Of a DNA stretch of 37,376 nt, positions 27,420-35,468 are shown piece by piece (the stretch's first letter is position 1; every line of letters begins with the position of its first letter). The position numbers were made by a program, and so were the translations under genes. The notes beneath the pieces are model-generated. The model made no database searches. It saw only the letters and a program-made list of their open reading frames with translations, and had not been told where the DNA came from. This stretch comes from Aquabacterium sp. GTDB taxonomy: Bacteria; Pseudomonadota; Gammaproteobacteria; Burkholderiales; Burkholderiaceae_C. The DNA is taken from the NCBI RefSeq assembly GCF_021768455.1, contig NZ_JAIZVX010000019.1, positions 1 through 37,376 of the forward strand, written 5' to 3'.

Positions 27420-29225
27420 TCAACCGGCCCGCATGGCCTGCAGCGGAGGCGCCGAAGCGGGCGCGCCTGCCGGCGAAAACACCGACTGACTGGTGGTCTC
27501 CGGATCATCGCTTTCCAGCACCTGGGGCAGCAAAGGCGCCAGGCGGCGGGTGTCGGCGCGCAGCACGCGCTGCTTGACCGAAGCGATCTGGGTGGGGTGC
27601 ATGGAAAAGCTGCGCAGCCCCATGGCCAGCAGCAGCTCGGTGAAAGCCGGGTCGCCGGCCATCTCGCCGCACACGCTCACGCCCTTGCCGGCCGCCCTCG
27701 CCTGCGCGATGGTGCTGGCCAGCAGGTGCAGGACCGCCGGGTGCCAGGGGTCGTAAAGGTGCGCCACGGCCTCATCGGCCCGGTCGATCGCCAGCGTGTA
27801 CTGGATCAGGTCGTTGGTGCCAATGGAGACGAAATCGAAATAGCGCAGGAACATCGGCATGGTCAGGGCCGAGGCCGGCACCTCGATCATGGCGCCCAGC
27901 TGCACCTCTCCGCAGGGCTTGCCCGCGTCCTGCAACTGGCGCCTGACGTGGGCGATGTGGTCCAGGGTCTGGCGGATTTCGCGCTGGCTGGCCAGCATGG
28001 GGATCAGGATCTTGACCGGGCCATGGGCCGCCGCACGGAACAGCGCCCGCAGCTGGCGACGGAACATGCTGGGCTCGGACAGGCTCCAGCGGATGGCCCG
28101 CAGGCCCAGCGCAGGGTTCAGCACCGATTCGTGGCGCAGTTCGCTGGCCGACATGCCGTCAAGCGGCTTGTCGGCGCCGATGTCCACCGTGCGGATCACC
28201 ACCGGCAGGCCCTTCATGGCCTCGACCGCACGGCGGTAGGCGTCGAACTGCTCTTCTTCGTCGGGCAGGTGACCGGCGCGGTTCATGAAGAGGAACTCGC
28301 TTCGGAACAGGCCCACCCCCACGGCACCGGCCTCCAGCGCCACCGGGCTGTCTTCCGGCATCTCGATGTTGGCCAGCAGCTCCACGCGCTCGCCGTCCAG
28401 CGTCACGGCCGGGGTGTGGCGCAGGCGGGCCAGGCGTGAGCGCTCCAGCTCACTCTGGCGCTGGCGGAAGCGGTACTCCTCCAGCACGATCGGCGACGGG
28501 TCGACGATGACCAGGCCCGCGTCACCGTCGATGATGATGCAGTCGTCCTGGCGGATCAGGTGGCTGGCCTGGCGGGCCCCCACGACGGCCGGGATGTCCA
28601 TGCTGCGGGCCACGATGGCCGTGTGCGACGTCTTGCCGCCCACATCGGTCACGAAGCCCTTGAACACGCTGCGCTTGAAGGTGAGCATGTCGGCCGGGGC
28701 GATGTCGGAGGCCACCAGCACCAGGGGCTCGTCACCCCCGAAATCGTGCGATGCCATGCCCGGCGCCGGCACCGCGGAAGGCAGACCACGGCTCAGGCTG
28801 CGCAGCAGGCGCTCGACCACCTGCTCCAGATCGGCCTTGCGCTCGCGGATGTAGGCGTCTTCCATCTCGTCGAACTGGCGCGCCAGCACCTCCAGCTGGG
28901 CCGACAGCGCCCACTCGGCGTTGTAGTGGCGGTCGCGGATCCATTCGGCGGCCGAGCCGATCAGGGCGTCGTCCTGCAACAGCATCTGGTGCACATCGAG
29001 CAGGGCGGCCAACTCGGCCGGTGCGTCGCTCGGGAGGTCGCGCTTGAGCACGTCGAACTCGGCGGCCACCACGTCGCGGGCCGCCGCCATGCGCGTCACT
29101 TCCGACTCGATCAGGGTCGGGTCGATGAAGACGTGGGGCACGTCGACGCGGCTGGAAGCCACCAAAACGGCCCGGCCGATGGCCACGCCACGCGACACAG
29201 GCAAACCAAAAATCTGGATGCTCAT
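27420..29225 (-). CDS. ptsI: PTS enzyme I (phosphoenolpyruvate-protein phosphotransferase)
   Basis: Enzyme I takes phosphate from PEP and passes it to HPr at the head of the phosphotransferase system. The 601-residue product has the phospho-histidine motif GGKTSHTAIVARS (His201; E. coli His189) and the PEP-binding C-terminal barrel with GVGLFRSEFLFM, SIGTNDLIQY and the catalytic Cys in VCGEMAGDP. There is no N-terminal GAF domain, so it is not PtsP. ATG 29225 starts the homology (MSIQIFGLPVSRGVAIG); 42 open codons upstream are not EI-like. A low-complexity tail of about 30 residues extends beyond the usual end (family about 575). Unlike many Burkholderiales, no EIIA-Man or ptsH gene adjoins it on the upstream side. 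Confidence 0.94.
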   Translation of the reverse strand: MSIQIFGLPVSRGVAIGRAVLVASSRVDVPHVFIDPTLIESEVTRMAAARDVVAAEFDVLKRDLPSDAPAELAALLDVHQMLLQDDALIGSAAEWIRDRHYNAEWALSAQLEVLARQFDEMEDAYIRERKADLEQVVERLLRSLSRGLPSAVPAPGMASHDFGGDEPLVLVASDIAPADMLTFKRSVFKGFVTDVGGKTSHTAIVARSMDIPAVVGARQASHLIRQDDCIIIDGDAGLVIVDPSPIVLEEYRFRQRQSELERSRLARLRHTPAVTLDGERVELLANIEMPEDSPVALEAGAVGVGLFRSEFLFMNRAGHLPDEEEQFDAYRRAVEAMKGLPVVIRTVDIGADKPLDGMSASELRHESVLNPALGLRAIRWSLSEPSMFRRQLRALFRAAAHGPVKILIPMLASQREIRQTLDHIAHVRRQLQDAGKPCGEVQLGAMIEVPASALTMPMFLRYFDFVSIGTNDLIQYTLAIDRADEAVAHLYDPWHPAVLHLLASTIAQARAAGKGVSVCGEMAGDPAFTELLLAMGLRSFSMHPTQIASVKQRVLRADTRRLAPLLPQVLESDDPETTSQSVFSPAGAPASAPPLQAMRAG

Positions 29226-29340: not shown

Positions 29341-29380
29341 TCGTCATGCAACTGTCACGCCAAGGTCATGGCGCGGTCAC
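29341..29380 (+). promoter_or_regulatory. Tandem Pho boxes upstream of olsB
   Basis: Four 7-mers occur at exact 11-bp spacing: TCGTCAT (29341-29347), CTGTCAC (29352-29358), AGGTCAT (29363-29369) and CGGTCAC (29374-29380). All contain GTCA in the same phase. This is the architecture of two adjoining PhoB-binding boxes (consensus CTGTCAT, 4-nt spacers). A weak -10 (CACAGT, 29391-29396) starts 10 nt after the last repeat, as in PhoB-activated promoters that lack a good -35. Predicted start of transcription is near 29403. Confidence 0.7.
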
Positions 29381-29434
29381 CCCGCGAGCCCACAGTGCGG
29401 CCCATGCCCACGAAGCAAGCCAATGGAGAAGACC

Positions 29435-30286
29435 ATGCGTGACCTGCCCCTGCCCACCCTGCCGATGGCCGACCTGTCTGCCCACCTATCGGCCGACGCC
29501 CGTGCCGCACGGAGGTCACTTCACCCGGGCTCAACGCCCCAGGCTGAGCTCGCAGGCAAACAAACCCTGGCAGTTGTTTGGGCGCGCACTCAAGAAGATG
29601 TTCTCGCCGCGCAACGCCTGAGGCACCTTGTCTTTGCCGAAGAAATGGGCGCCCGCCTGAGCGTGCCCCAAGGCAGCCCCAAGGGCCACGACATCGACCT
29701 CTTCGACCCCTACTGCGAGCACCTGCTGGTGCGCCTGGGTGGCGAAGACGGCGAGGTGATCGGCACCTACCGCGTGCTCACGCCCGCCGCCGCCAAACGC
29801 GTGGGCGGCCTCTACAGCGAAACCGAATTCGACCTGACCCGCCTGCGCCCCCTGCGCGGCAAGATGGTGGAACTGGGCCGCTCCTGCGTGCACCCTGACC
29901 ACCGTCACGGTGGCGCCATCATGGCGCTGTGGGGTGCCCTGGCCGAGTTCATGGTCCGCAACGAGCTCGACACCATGGTCGGCTGCGCCAGCATCAGCAT
30001 GCGCGACGGCGGCCACATCGCCGCCAGCCTGTGGGAACAGCTGCGCCAGACCCACCTGGCCCCCATCGAGTGGCAGGTGCGCCCACGCCTGCCCCTGCCG
30101 GTGGAAGAGCTCGACCGCCACCTGCAGGTCGAGCCGCCCGCGCTGATCAAGGGTTACCTGCGCGTGGGTGCCAAGGTGCTGGGCGCGCCCGCCTGGGACC
30201 CCGACTTCAACACCGCCGACCTGCCCATGCTCATGCGCATCGCCGACCTGCCGGCCCGCTACCGCAAGCATTTCCTGGGTGCCTGA
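29435..30286 (+). CDS. olsB: OlsB-like ornithine-lipid N-acyltransferase (GNAT fold)
   Basis: The 283-residue protein belongs to the GNAT-fold acyltransferase family (PF13444) that includes OlsB. OlsB links a 3-hydroxyacyl chain from ACP to the alpha-amino group of ornithine, the first step to phosphorus-free ornithine lipids. Visible blocks are AAQRLRHLVFAEEMGA, EVIGTYRVL, VELGRSCVHPDHR (acyl-donor binding core) and ALIKGYLRVGAKVLGAPAWDPDFNTAD, strongly conserved in Burkholderiales homologues. GGAG at 29425-29428 favours ATG 29435 over the in-frame ATG at 29423. No olsA (second acyltransferase) lies next to it. A tandem Pho box upstream fits induction by phosphate starvation. Substrate identity is inferred, not shown. 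Confidence 0.8.
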   Translation: MRDLPLPTLPMADLSAHLSADARAARRSLHPGSTPQAELAGKQTLAVVWARTQEDVLAAQRLRHLVFAEEMGARLSVPQGSPKGHDIDLFDPYCEHLLVRLGGEDGEVIGTYRVLTPAAAKRVGGLYSETEFDLTRLRPLRGKMVELGRSCVHPDHRHGGAIMALWGALAEFMVRNELDTMVGCASISMRDGGHIAASLWEQLRQTHLAPIEWQVRPRLPLPVEELDRHLQVEPPALIKGYLRVGAKVLGAPAWDPDFNTADLPMLMRIADLPARYRKHFLGA

Positions 30287-32349: not shown

Positions 32350-34659
32350 ATGAGCACCATCAAAGCCAACCGCTGGGCCTGGATCGTCTCCGGCGCAGCC
32401 ATGACGGCCACCGGCCTGATCCTGGCCTTCCTGCTCGTGTTCGCCACCCAGAACAGCGAGCGGCTCGAACCCCACTTCACCTGGCTGTTCTGGACCAACG
32501 TCGTGGTCGCCACCATCCTGGTGCTGGTGATCCTGCTGGCGCTGGGCCGCCTGGCCTTGCGCCTGCGCCAGCGCCGCTTCGGCAGTCGGCTGCTGCTCAA
32601 GCTCGCCGGCATCTTCGGCCTGGTCAGCCTGGTGCCGGGGCTGCTGATCTACACCGTGTCCTACCAGTTCGTCTCCCGCAGCATCGAGACCTGGTTCGAC
32701 GTGCGCGTCGAAGGCGCGCTGGAGGCCGGCCTCAACCTCGGCCGCAGCACCCTCGACACCCTCACGCTGGACATGGCCAACAAGACCCGCGCGGTCACCG
32801 ATCGGCTCAACGGCGCGCCCAGCCTGCTCGAACTGGAGCGCCTGCGTGAGCAGCTTGGCGCACAGACCGTCACCCTGCTGGGCGAGAGCGGCCTGGTCGA
32901 GCGCTCGGCCGGCGGCGAGGTCTCGCGCATCCTGGTGGCCGAGAAGCTGCCCCTGAGCTGGCGCCAGGAGGCCCGCCACAAAGGCGTGATGGCCCTGGTC
33001 GAAGGCCTGGACGACAAGGCAGAGAAACCCGACGCCAGCGATGCCAGCGCCCGCCTCATCGCCCTGGCCTGGTTGCCCGACCAGAGCTTCAGCCTGCAGA
33101 CCCGCGGGCACTTCCTCATGGTCACGCAGCGCATCGCCCCCGACCTGGTGCGCAACGCCCTCGACGTGCAGGCCGCCTACCGCGAATACCAGCAGCGCTC
33201 GCTGGGCCGCGAAGGCCTTCGCCGCATGTACATCGGCACGCTGACCCTGGCCCTGATCCTGGCCGTCTTCGGCGCCTTCCTGCTCGCCGCCGTGCTGGGG
33301 CAACAGCTGGCCAAGCCCCTGCTGCTGCTGGCCGAAGGCGTGGGCGAGGTGGCCCGTGGCGACCTGCGCCCCAAGGCCATCTTCGCCTCGGCCGACGAAC
33401 TCGGCGGCCTCACCCGCTCCTTCGCGGCCATGACCCAGCAACTGGCCGACGCCCGCACCCTCGCCGAACACAGCGTCAACGAGCTCGACAGCGCCCGCGC
33501 CCACCTGCAGACCATCCTCGACAACCTGACCGCCGGCGTCATCGTGTTCGACGCCCAGGGACGCATCGACACCGTCAACCCCGGCGCCACCCGCATCCTC
33601 AAGCTGCCCATCTCGGCCTACCGAGGGCGCCCGCTGTCAGACGTGCCGGGACTGGAAGACTTTGGCCGGACCCTGCGCCAGCGCTTCGAGCTGCACGAGA
33701 CCGATCCCACCCCCGGTGAGCGCCAGCAATGGCAGGAGTCCTACGAGCTGCCCCTTCATGGTGCACAAGAGCCCCTGACCCTGCTGGTGCGCGGCGCAGA
33801 ACTGCCCCCGGACGAACGCCTCATCGTGTTCGACGACCTCTCCGACGTGGTCTCGGCCCAGCGCGCCGAGGCCTGGAGCCAGGTGGCCCGCCGCATGGCG
33901 CACGAGGTCAAGAACCCGCTCACGCCCATCCAGCTTTCGGCCGAACGCCTGCAACTCAAGCTGGAAGACAAGCTTGGCGAGACCGACCGCAGCCTGCTCA
34001 ACCGCTCGGTCACCACCATCGTGACGCAGGTTCAGGCGCTCAAGACCCTGATCAACGAGTTCCGCGACTACGCCCGCCTGCCCGGCGCCAAGCTGATGCC
34101 GCTGGACCTCAACACCCTGGTCAACGACGTGCTGGCCCTCTACGGCCACGCCATCGAACAAGGCACCCTGCGGGTGGAGCTGGCCCAGGACCTGCCCGAG
34201 ATCCTGGGCGACGCCACCCAGCTGCGCCAGGTGGTGCACAACCTGGTGCAGAACGCGCTCGACGCCATCGGCGAACACCCGCGCGACGGGACCGCACCTC
34301 AGGTGACCCTGCGCACCGACGCCTCCCTGAGGGACGATGGCCAGGTGCGCGCCGTGCGCCTGCTGGTGCGCGACAACGGCCCGGGCTTCCCCGAAGCCAT
34401 CCTCAAGCGCGCCTTCGAGCCCTACATCACCACCAAGGCCAAAGGCACCGGCCTGGGCCTGGCCGTCGTGAAGAAGATCGCCGACGAGCACACCGCCCTG
34501 GTCCGCATCCGCAACCTCACGGCACGTAAAGTGGCCGCCCCCGAGGGCTCTCAAGGGTATCCAGATGAGGCAGCGCATGTGATCGGGGCACAAGTTTCGC
34601 TATCATTTTCAAAGCTGTCATCTCAACCCAGCCAGGATCGGTCACACTCGCAAGCGTGA
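32350..34659 (+). CDS. ntrY: Sensor histidine kinase NtrY
   Basis: NtrY is the membrane sensor of the NtrYX system, linked in other proteobacteria to nitrogen metabolism, respiration and redox. The 769-residue protein has three N-terminal membrane helices (about 10-32, 45-66, 85-105), an extracytoplasmic sensor segment, a further helix (about 300-322) and a HAMP domain. A PAS domain follows (about 395-500, LQTILDNLTAGVIVFDAQGRI), then the H-box RRMAHEVKNPLTPIQLSAERL with phospho-acceptor His518. The ATPase domain has DNGPGFPE and a GTGLGLAVVKK lid. The last 40 codons are less GC-biased than the rest and may overlap the control region of ntrX, which begins 26 nt after the stop. Confidence 0.93.
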   Translation: MSTIKANRWAWIVSGAAMTATGLILAFLLVFATQNSERLEPHFTWLFWTNVVVATILVLVILLALGRLALRLRQRRFGSRLLLKLAGIFGLVSLVPGLLIYTVSYQFVSRSIETWFDVRVEGALEAGLNLGRSTLDTLTLDMANKTRAVTDRLNGAPSLLELERLREQLGAQTVTLLGESGLVERSAGGEVSRILVAEKLPLSWRQEARHKGVMALVEGLDDKAEKPDASDASARLIALAWLPDQSFSLQTRGHFLMVTQRIAPDLVRNALDVQAAYREYQQRSLGREGLRRMYIGTLTLALILAVFGAFLLAAVLGQQLAKPLLLLAEGVGEVARGDLRPKAIFASADELGGLTRSFAAMTQQLADARTLAEHSVNELDSARAHLQTILDNLTAGVIVFDAQGRIDTVNPGATRILKLPISAYRGRPLSDVPGLEDFGRTLRQRFELHETDPTPGERQQWQESYELPLHGAQEPLTLLVRGAELPPDERLIVFDDLSDVVSAQRAEAWSQVARRMAHEVKNPLTPIQLSAERLQLKLEDKLGETDRSLLNRSVTTIVTQVQALKTLINEFRDYARLPGAKLMPLDLNTLVNDVLALYGHAIEQGTLRVELAQDLPEILGDATQLRQVVHNLVQNALDAIGEHPRDGTAPQVTLRTDASLRDDGQVRAVRLLVRDNGPGFPEAILKRAFEPYITTKAKGTGLGLAVVKKIADEHTALVRIRNLTARKVAAPEGSQGYPDEAAHVIGAQVSLSFSKLSSQPSQDRSHSQA

Positions 34660-34685
34660 TCCCCATCCTGGGGTACAAAAAATTC

Positions 34686-35468
34686 ATGGCCACCATTCTT
34701 GTTGTTGACGACGAACTGGGCATCCGCGCCCTGCTGTCAGAAATCCTGAGCGACGAAGGACACACCGTCGAAGTCGCTGAAAACGCCGCCAAGGCCCGCG
34801 TCCTGCGCGAACAGTGCAAGCCCGATCTGGTTCTGCTCGACATCTGGATGCCCGATGTCGACGGCGTCACCCTGCTCAAGGAATGGTCCGCCAGCGGTCA
34901 GCTCACGATGCCCGTGATCATGATGTCCGGCCACGGCACGATCGACACCGCGGTCGAAGCCACCAAGTTCGGCGCCCAGGCCTTCCTGGAAAAGCCCATC
35001 ACCATGCAGAAGCTGCTCCGCGCCGTGGAACAGGGCCTCACCAAGCCGGCCCCCCGCGCCAGCGCCGCCTCGGCACCGCCGGTCCACCTGGCCACCGTCA
35101 CGCCGATCACCGCAGCCCCCTCCTATGCCGCCATGAGCCACGCCAGCCTGGCGCCCATGCGCAATGAGCTCGTCGGCCACGCCGAACCGCACCATGCCCC
35201 CAGCAGCTACGGCATGGGCCATGGCAGCGTGATGAGCAGCCCCGTTCACAGCGGCCCGCAGCACGAGCAGAGCTTCGAACTCGACCGCCCGCTGCGCGAA
35301 GCCCGTGACGACTTCGAACGCGCCTACTTCGAGTTCCACCTGGCTCGCGAAGGCGGCAGCATGACCCGCGTGGCCGAGAAGACCGGCCTCGAGCGCACCC
35401 ACCTGTATCGAAAATTGAAACAACTTGGTGTTGATTTGGGTCGATCGAAGAAAACTGCTTCGAATTGA
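34686..35468 (+). CDS. ntrX: NtrX-like response regulator lacking the AAA+ domain
   Basis: The 260-residue partner of NtrY has only two of the three NtrX domains. The receiver (1 to about 118) is clearly NtrX-like, with Asp52 (LLDIWMPDVDG), Ser81 (MMSGHGTIDTAVEATKFGA) and Lys103 (FLEKPI). The C-terminus (about 200-255) has the NtrX Fis-type block REARDDFERAYFEFHLAREGG and the HTH TRVAEKTGLERTHLYRKLKQLGV. Between them, where the about 240-residue sigma-54 ATPase should be, is an 80-residue Ala/His/Met/Pro-rich linker. No Walker A or GAFTGA motif exists, so it cannot itself drive sigma-54 polymerase; it may repress or activate by contact. The frame is continuous, so this is not a frameshift. 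ATG 34686 is preferred to GTG 34656. Confidence 0.9.
   Translation: MATILVVDDELGIRALLSEILSDEGHTVEVAENAAKARVLREQCKPDLVLLDIWMPDVDGVTLLKEWSASGQLTMPVIMMSGHGTIDTAVEATKFGAQAFLEKPITMQKLLRAVEQGLTKPAPRASAASAPPVHLATVTPITAAPSYAAMSHASLAPMRNELVGHAEPHHAPSSYGMGHGSVMSSPVHSGPQHEQSFELDRPLREARDDFERAYFEFHLAREGGSMTRVAEKTGLERTHLYRKLKQLGVDLGRSKKTASN

Follow-up and report, generated by a model that had tools for sequence, protein, structure and literature searches.

A putative PhoB-activated promoter in front of an OlsB-type acyltransferase gene of Aquabacterium sp., with an OlsA-like gene unlinked

We propose, with high confidence, that positions 29341-29396 of the analysed Aquabacterium sp. DNA are a PhoB-activated promoter of an OlsB-type aminolipid enzyme, and that the second acylation would be carried out by an enzyme encoded elsewhere and outside Pho control. 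Since a conserved four-repeat switch precedes a gene whose product probably makes membrane lipids free of phosphorus, this bacterium very likely swaps membrane lipids when phosphate is exhausted, as is known in other bacteria; both the induction and the lipid are predicted from sequence.

The window, that is, the whole stretch of 37,376 nucleotides under analysis, is contig 121 of a draft genome of 316 contigs (4.30 Mb, 89.7% complete). Its relevant features are collected in Table 1. The original prediction described four GTCA-containing heptamers with an exact 11-bp period, a weak -10 element 10 nt past the last of them, and a Shine-Dalgarno sequence and ATG further downstream, and a direct reading of the sequence agrees on all of these points. 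In Pho box promoters, the box takes the position of the -35 element.

Table 1. Features of the olsB-like promoter region, in window coordinates
Feature	Position	Strand	Remarks
PEP-utilising phosphotransferase (PTS) gene, ptsI/ptsP type	27420..29225	-	divergent neighbour; not taken as target of the array
Pho box array, four units equal to two adjacent Pho boxes	29341..29380	+	11-bp period; GTCA cores spaced by exactly 11
Heptamer 1, TCGTCAT	29341..29347	+	GTCA core at 29343
Heptamer 2, CTGTCAC	29352..29358	+	GTCA core at 29354
Heptamer 3, AGGTCAT	29363..29369	+	GTCA core at 29365
Heptamer 4, CGGTCAC	29374..29380	+	GTCA core at 29376
-10-like hexamer CACAGT	29391..29396	+	begins 10 nt past the last heptamer; array in the -35 place
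Shine-Dalgarno-like GGAGA	29425..29429	+	similar elements seen by eye before the ATG in upstream regions of the same genus
olsB-like gene, 283 aa, GNAT-fold N-acyltransferase (PF13444)	29435..30286	+	ATG at 29435; profile matches

GTCA is a short core and CACAGT a weak -10, which would leave room for a chance repeat, but several searches speak against it. The exact pattern (GTCA-N7)x3-GTCA has a single match in the 4.30-Mb draft genome, the olsB array itself, and its reversed control has none. When up to two mismatches were allowed, five rows were obtained in the genome against three in the control: the olsB array, a GDPD gene in two registers, a fasciclin gene beside pstS, and a site near motA-like genes. 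The second GDPD row (contig C59) was discarded as a merely shifted register of the same array, and the last site (two mismatches; contig C224, with motA- and motB-like genes nearby as judged by eye) was taken as chance, the matrix described below giving about 0 bits there. Three phased GTCA cores returned three genome rows, two in the olsB array and one in the fasciclin array, and one row in the control. A TGTCAC-N4-TGTCAC pattern proved too strict (no matches, one in the control), and the GTCA core was used instead. When the 350 nt before the gene were shuffled 60 times, the best score obtained was 12.75, and thus never the 18.0 of the array.

The original prediction had suggested ranking the site with a PhoB matrix in a genome scan; the site and ten loci of the genome were scored with a 56-column matrix built from 99 arrays outside the genus. 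These arrays were picked by handle and locus, and one of the 99 training rows (L117) carries the name Aquabacterium, at 71% protein identity. The olsB site reached 44.2 bits, while the maximum over both strands of a first-order random sequence of 4.3 Mb was 17.4; the second-best match in the window was the olsB array itself shifted by one unit (8.1 bits). Among the ten loci scored, the level of 17.4 was exceeded in just two further cases, the arrays of the GDPD gene (29.1) and of the fasciclin gene (24.5). The two-unit sites before the PhoX-type, phytase-like, sulfate-binding and pstS genes discussed below were missed by the four-unit matrix (8.7 bits at most, leaving the fasciclin array aside), and their basis is a two-unit pattern search. 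Together with the conservation of the array and of the -10 phase, these results refute chance, to which we give a practically negligible probability.

Conservation was assessed in front of orthologues. The protein search gave a match in 99 of 120 genomes, of which nine (G002, G028, G049, G078, G086, G094, G109, G116 and G119) were omitted from the promoter counts owing to contig ends, weak matches or unfetched sequence, as was G022, with 27 nt upstream only. The 169 upstream regions comprise 89 genome loci and 80 named loci, the latter being the best 80 of at least 575 relatives. Some of the named loci belong to the same genomes as other rows, and a set of 139 drops near-identical upstream regions. 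An array was called present at a score of 14 or more. By this threshold, a four-unit array precedes olsB in 151 of 169 loci (including the best 80 of at least 575 relatives), most of them less perfect than that of the window: 36/36 within the genus, 21/25 in other genera of the family, 19/28 in other families of the order, and 75/80 among the named loci, again the best 80 of at least 575. Conservation of the repeats before orthologues thus stands for the phased four-unit array, but not for four perfect GTCA cores, which occur in 9/36 upstream regions of the genus and in 17 of the 151 with an array (best 80 of at least 575 relatives included). Variation is greatest in the third unit, which is usually degenerate, TTCA being common there. 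In the non-redundant set, with the same inclusion of the best 80 of at least 575, 121 of 139 upstream regions carry the array with period 11 on the + strand; periods 8-10 and 12-15 gave the same score in 0-2 of 139, and the opposite strand at period 11 gave seven. Records named Aquabacterium, Roseateles, Sphaerotilus, Variovorax, Acidovorax and Rhodoferax, all among the best 80 of at least 575 relatives, have arrays before olsB, and Aquabacterium olei bin64 (86% protein identity) is among the nearest of these named loci.

The -10 element gives a test that is independent of array detection, because the bases behind the array were not used in finding the arrays. In 117 of 120 non-redundant promoters of orthologues, NANNNT begins exactly 10 nt past the array, while at 30 other offsets it is found in 0-7%, which bears out the weak -10 of the original prediction. 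As for the 18 of 169 upstream regions below threshold, four score 9 out of 10 on a combined two-unit and -10 score, as do 8 of 900 shuffles; three score 8, where 79 of 900 shuffles peak; and the remaining 11 show nothing above chance on that score.

The array sits inside a 209-bp intergenic region common to the olsB-like gene and the divergent PTS gene, and it might therefore drive the latter, or both. However, to judge from the direction of the GTCA cores and from the -10, the array acts on the + strand. Among the named loci (best 80 of at least 575), the PTS gene is present in the flank in 23 of 80, with the copy of L136 at 1.8 kb, and rsmB is found in 5. For the same best 80 of at least 575 relatives, the absence of the PTS gene in 57 refers to a flank of up to 2.5 kb, in some cases shortened by contig ends. 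All 23 loci with the PTS gene have the array, and so do 52 of the 57 without it (best 80 of at least 575). Because the array is kept before olsB in these 52 loci, we consider that it goes with olsB, and a role in PTS gene expression looks very improbable.

The genome also offers a regulon to which this promoter could belong. The genome has six matches to the pattern GTCAY-N6-GTCAY-N11-ANNNT, whereas the reversed pattern has none. They stand before pstS, olsB and genes for a fasciclin protein (divergent), a phytase-like protein (PF13449), a PhoX-type phosphatase (PF05787) and a sulfate-binding protein (TIGR00971). For the phytase-like and PhoX-type proteins, of 446 and 476 residues, the domain scan covered the first 400. 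The sulfate-binding protein is not a phosphate gene product, and this site counts against the PhoB reading. The GDPD gene has a four-unit array with one mismatch and CACAGT at the same spacing (G000:C59:67-103), and the 10-nt distance from box to -10 is shared by the pstS, fasciclin and GDPD genes. PhoB (346.2 bits, cut-off 296.2) and PhoR (379.4 bits, TIGR02966, cut-off 334.2) are encoded, PstB and PhoU are also above their curated cut-offs, and PhoB, PhoR, PhoU and PstB all lie on the pstS contig. In the PDB, the closest full-length protein to this PhoB is RegX3, a point against the PhoB reading; E. coli PhoB matches by halves, the DNA-binding half matching E. coli PhoB 1gxp at 6.8e-39.

Three further observations concern these loci. 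The pstS and fasciclin-domain genes are divergent (G000:C104:47282-47419) and have separate Pho-like boxes, each followed after 10 nt by a -10; on the fasciclin side the box is a four-unit array. The site before the sulfate ABC transporter substrate-binding protein (G000:C176:32105-32136) has two units and hints at a link between phosphate and sulfate. Finally, the GDPD gene, whose product uses glycerophosphodiesters, may be co-induced with olsB.

Since the motif marks phosphate genes and PhoB, PhoR, PhoU and PstB pass their cut-offs beside pstS, PhoB would be the natural reader of the array. Another regulator of the OmpR/PhoB family with 11-bp half-site spacing could bind the repeats instead, and nine more proteins of the genome match the full PhoB model, every one of them under the cut-off. 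Against this, the half-sites and the -10 phase are common to the pstS, PhoX-type, phytase-like and GDPD genes, and the GTCA core agrees with CTGTCATNNNNCTGTCAT, the sequence that an excerpt of PMC11828411 gives for the E. coli Pho box. We judge a different regulator very unlikely. The PhoB-promoter architecture put forward in the original prediction thus gains support from orthologue conservation, the matrix score, the phosphate genes with the same half-sites and the encoded PhoB/PhoR pair, all of it sequence evidence. As a side observation, the window contains downstream, at 32350-35063, an ntrY-like sensor kinase gene (by eye) followed by a response-regulator match (34689-35063).

The product of the downstream gene was also predicted to be OlsB-like, and this remains the best reading of its sequence. 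PF13444 matches with 112 bits, and the best NCBIfam matches are two OlsB models, NF052554 (1.1e-48, 166 bits) and NF052555 (5.9e-44, 151 bits), which cover residues 39-280; their equivalog cut-offs are 350 and 320. NF052554 has a single match in the draft genome and none in 14 control genomes. The start region of the protein, ATGCGTGACCT, is well conserved within the genus. A sequence search of PDB chains gave no match at E up to 1. The predicted fold (28 sequences, mean pLDDT 87.5) is GNAT-type and nearest to LasI, BjaI and TofI, with FeeM in the top ten and small N-acetyltransferases next. Two family genomes contain a second OlsB-like match, 31-34% identical (G042:C43:249082-249885 and G050:C133:14976-15722).

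Because the OlsB scores are well under the equivalog cut-offs, ornithine is not established as the substrate and is named here as the presumed one. The Pho box could be real and the product still be another N-acyl amino acid lipid (of lysine, glycine or glutamine) or a free N-acyl amino acid. The sub-cut-off scores favour this possibility, as do the likeness of the predicted fold to FeeM and AHL synthases and the lysine and ornithine lipids that Acinetobacter OlsBA yields, according to the part of PMC11828411 consulted. On the other side, the two OlsB models lead the NCBIfam matches by far over residues 39-280, and, according to an excerpt of PMC7814305, Burkholderia cenocepacia has an OlsB, Bcal1281. 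We regard a different product as unlikely, and we continue with an OlsB-type acyltransferase as the probable product.

According to the original prediction, the window had a lone olsB. It is correct that no olsA is adjacent, but this need not mean that the genome lacks one: an OlsA-like acyltransferase is encoded, unlinked, behind pyrC. The genome encodes four PF01553 acyltransferases, and one of them, C67:36923-37750, has the two OlsA models as its best matches (3.3e-36 and 4.3e-36, 125 and 124 bits), far under their cut-offs of 300. Its ATG overlaps the stop codon of the dihydroorotase gene pyrC, and no Pho array was found within 400 nt upstream. Seventy family genomes have an OlsA match; the pyrC linkage was checked in 50 of them, plus G070, with G065 and G068 outside that set; the gene lies behind pyrC in 50/50 of these family loci, and an array precedes it in 0/50. 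Of 32 genomes from other families of the order, 19 have an OlsA match immediately downstream of olsB (one of them, G119, with a partial olsB match). In the family of the window, this arrangement occurs in none of 64 genomes with both matches, and the two are on different contigs in 42 of the 64. G065 and G068 have both on one contig, within 7 kb, and in G065 (C8:70556-72520) the OlsA-like match adjoins olsB divergently, an exception in the family. Outside it, we found five pyrC-linked copies, G073 having one such copy plus another at most 3 kb from olsB.

This gene was first read as a plain OlsA, since the best match of the query in other families often sits behind olsB. That reading is weakened by two results. 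The gene is kept in six of seven family genomes without an olsB match, pyrC-linked in the five checked (G033, G046, G057, G058 and G070), and a tree does not separate the pyrC-linked gene from other homologues (bootstrap not settled). The five pyrC-linked copies outside the family and the two copies of G073 likewise tell against a simple OlsA label. A shared PlsC/OlsA role would fit. A dual OlsA/PlsC activity is known from Rhodobacter capsulatus. It is tempting to propose, although we hold this only tentatively and at less than even odds, that olsBA was dismantled in nearly all of the family (G065 excepted), PhoB governing the committed enzyme only, while a constitutive pyrC-linked acyltransferase also serves phospholipids. 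If so, aminolipid output would be gated by a single promoter, with the second acyltransferase shared with phospholipid synthesis.

The scheme we propose draws on the general mechanism of activation by PhoB and on the known reaction of OlsB. When phosphate is scarce, PhoR would phosphorylate PhoB, which would bind the four 11-bp-spaced half-sites head to tail, standing in for the -35 element. PhoB would then bring RNA polymerase to the poor -10 CACAGT, with a predicted transcription start about 7 nt further, near 29403. The induced OlsB-type N-acyltransferase would transfer a 3-hydroxyacyl group from acyl-ACP to the alpha-amine of an amino acid, either ornithine or one related to it, and this N-acylation would be the committed step towards an aminolipid free of phosphorus. 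An unlinked, Pho-independent acyltransferase, for which the pyrC-linked OlsA-like protein is the best candidate, would add the second acyl chain. For a large bacterial group, the prediction is that phosphate shortage switches on aminolipid synthesis via one promoter. The matrix and the short pattern can be used to find Pho promoters in related genomes, and neither the prediction nor the pattern is surprising in kind.

Control of olsB by PhoB is already known elsewhere, and the Aquabacterium case is a further, well-supported instance. A limited literature search found no report of OlsB or ornithine lipids in Comamonadaceae or Hydrogenophaga. Compared with the E. coli Pho box (CTGTCATNNNNCTGTCAT), the array has the same repeated 7-bp unit and 4-bp spacer. 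Unlike E. coli Pho box promoters, its spacers are partly G+C-rich and its -10 is far from TATAAT, mainly A2 and T6 being kept. OlsBA operons resemble the present case in the OlsB family and in having an OlsA-like protein for the second step; the OlsA match directly follows olsB in 19/32 genomes of other families, but in 0/64 genomes of the family of the window. For Burkholderia sensu lato, according to the excerpts of PMC7814305, an alphaproteobacterial matrix places a putative Pho box upstream of olsB in 21 of 43 genomes, and a second matrix does so in every one of the 43; the excerpts also mention a swap of PE for OL at low phosphate in P. xenovorans. The second-matrix and P. xenovorans results are given as data not shown in that paper. 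The order, the gene family and the regulator motif are common to that case and ours, but the matrix there is an 18-bp single box, while here a four-unit array has a phased -10, and the genera that those excerpts name do not include Aquabacterium or its relatives. In Acinetobacter baumannii, as far as the consulted part of PMC11828411 goes, aminolipid formation and olsB depend on PhoR, a Pho box precedes olsB and none olsA, and olsA is phosphate-independent and lies unlinked elsewhere on the chromosome. The arrangement resembles ours; the Acinetobacter case rests on phoR mutants, transcriptomics and lipids, ours on genome sequence, and our candidate for OlsA is encoded directly behind pyrC.
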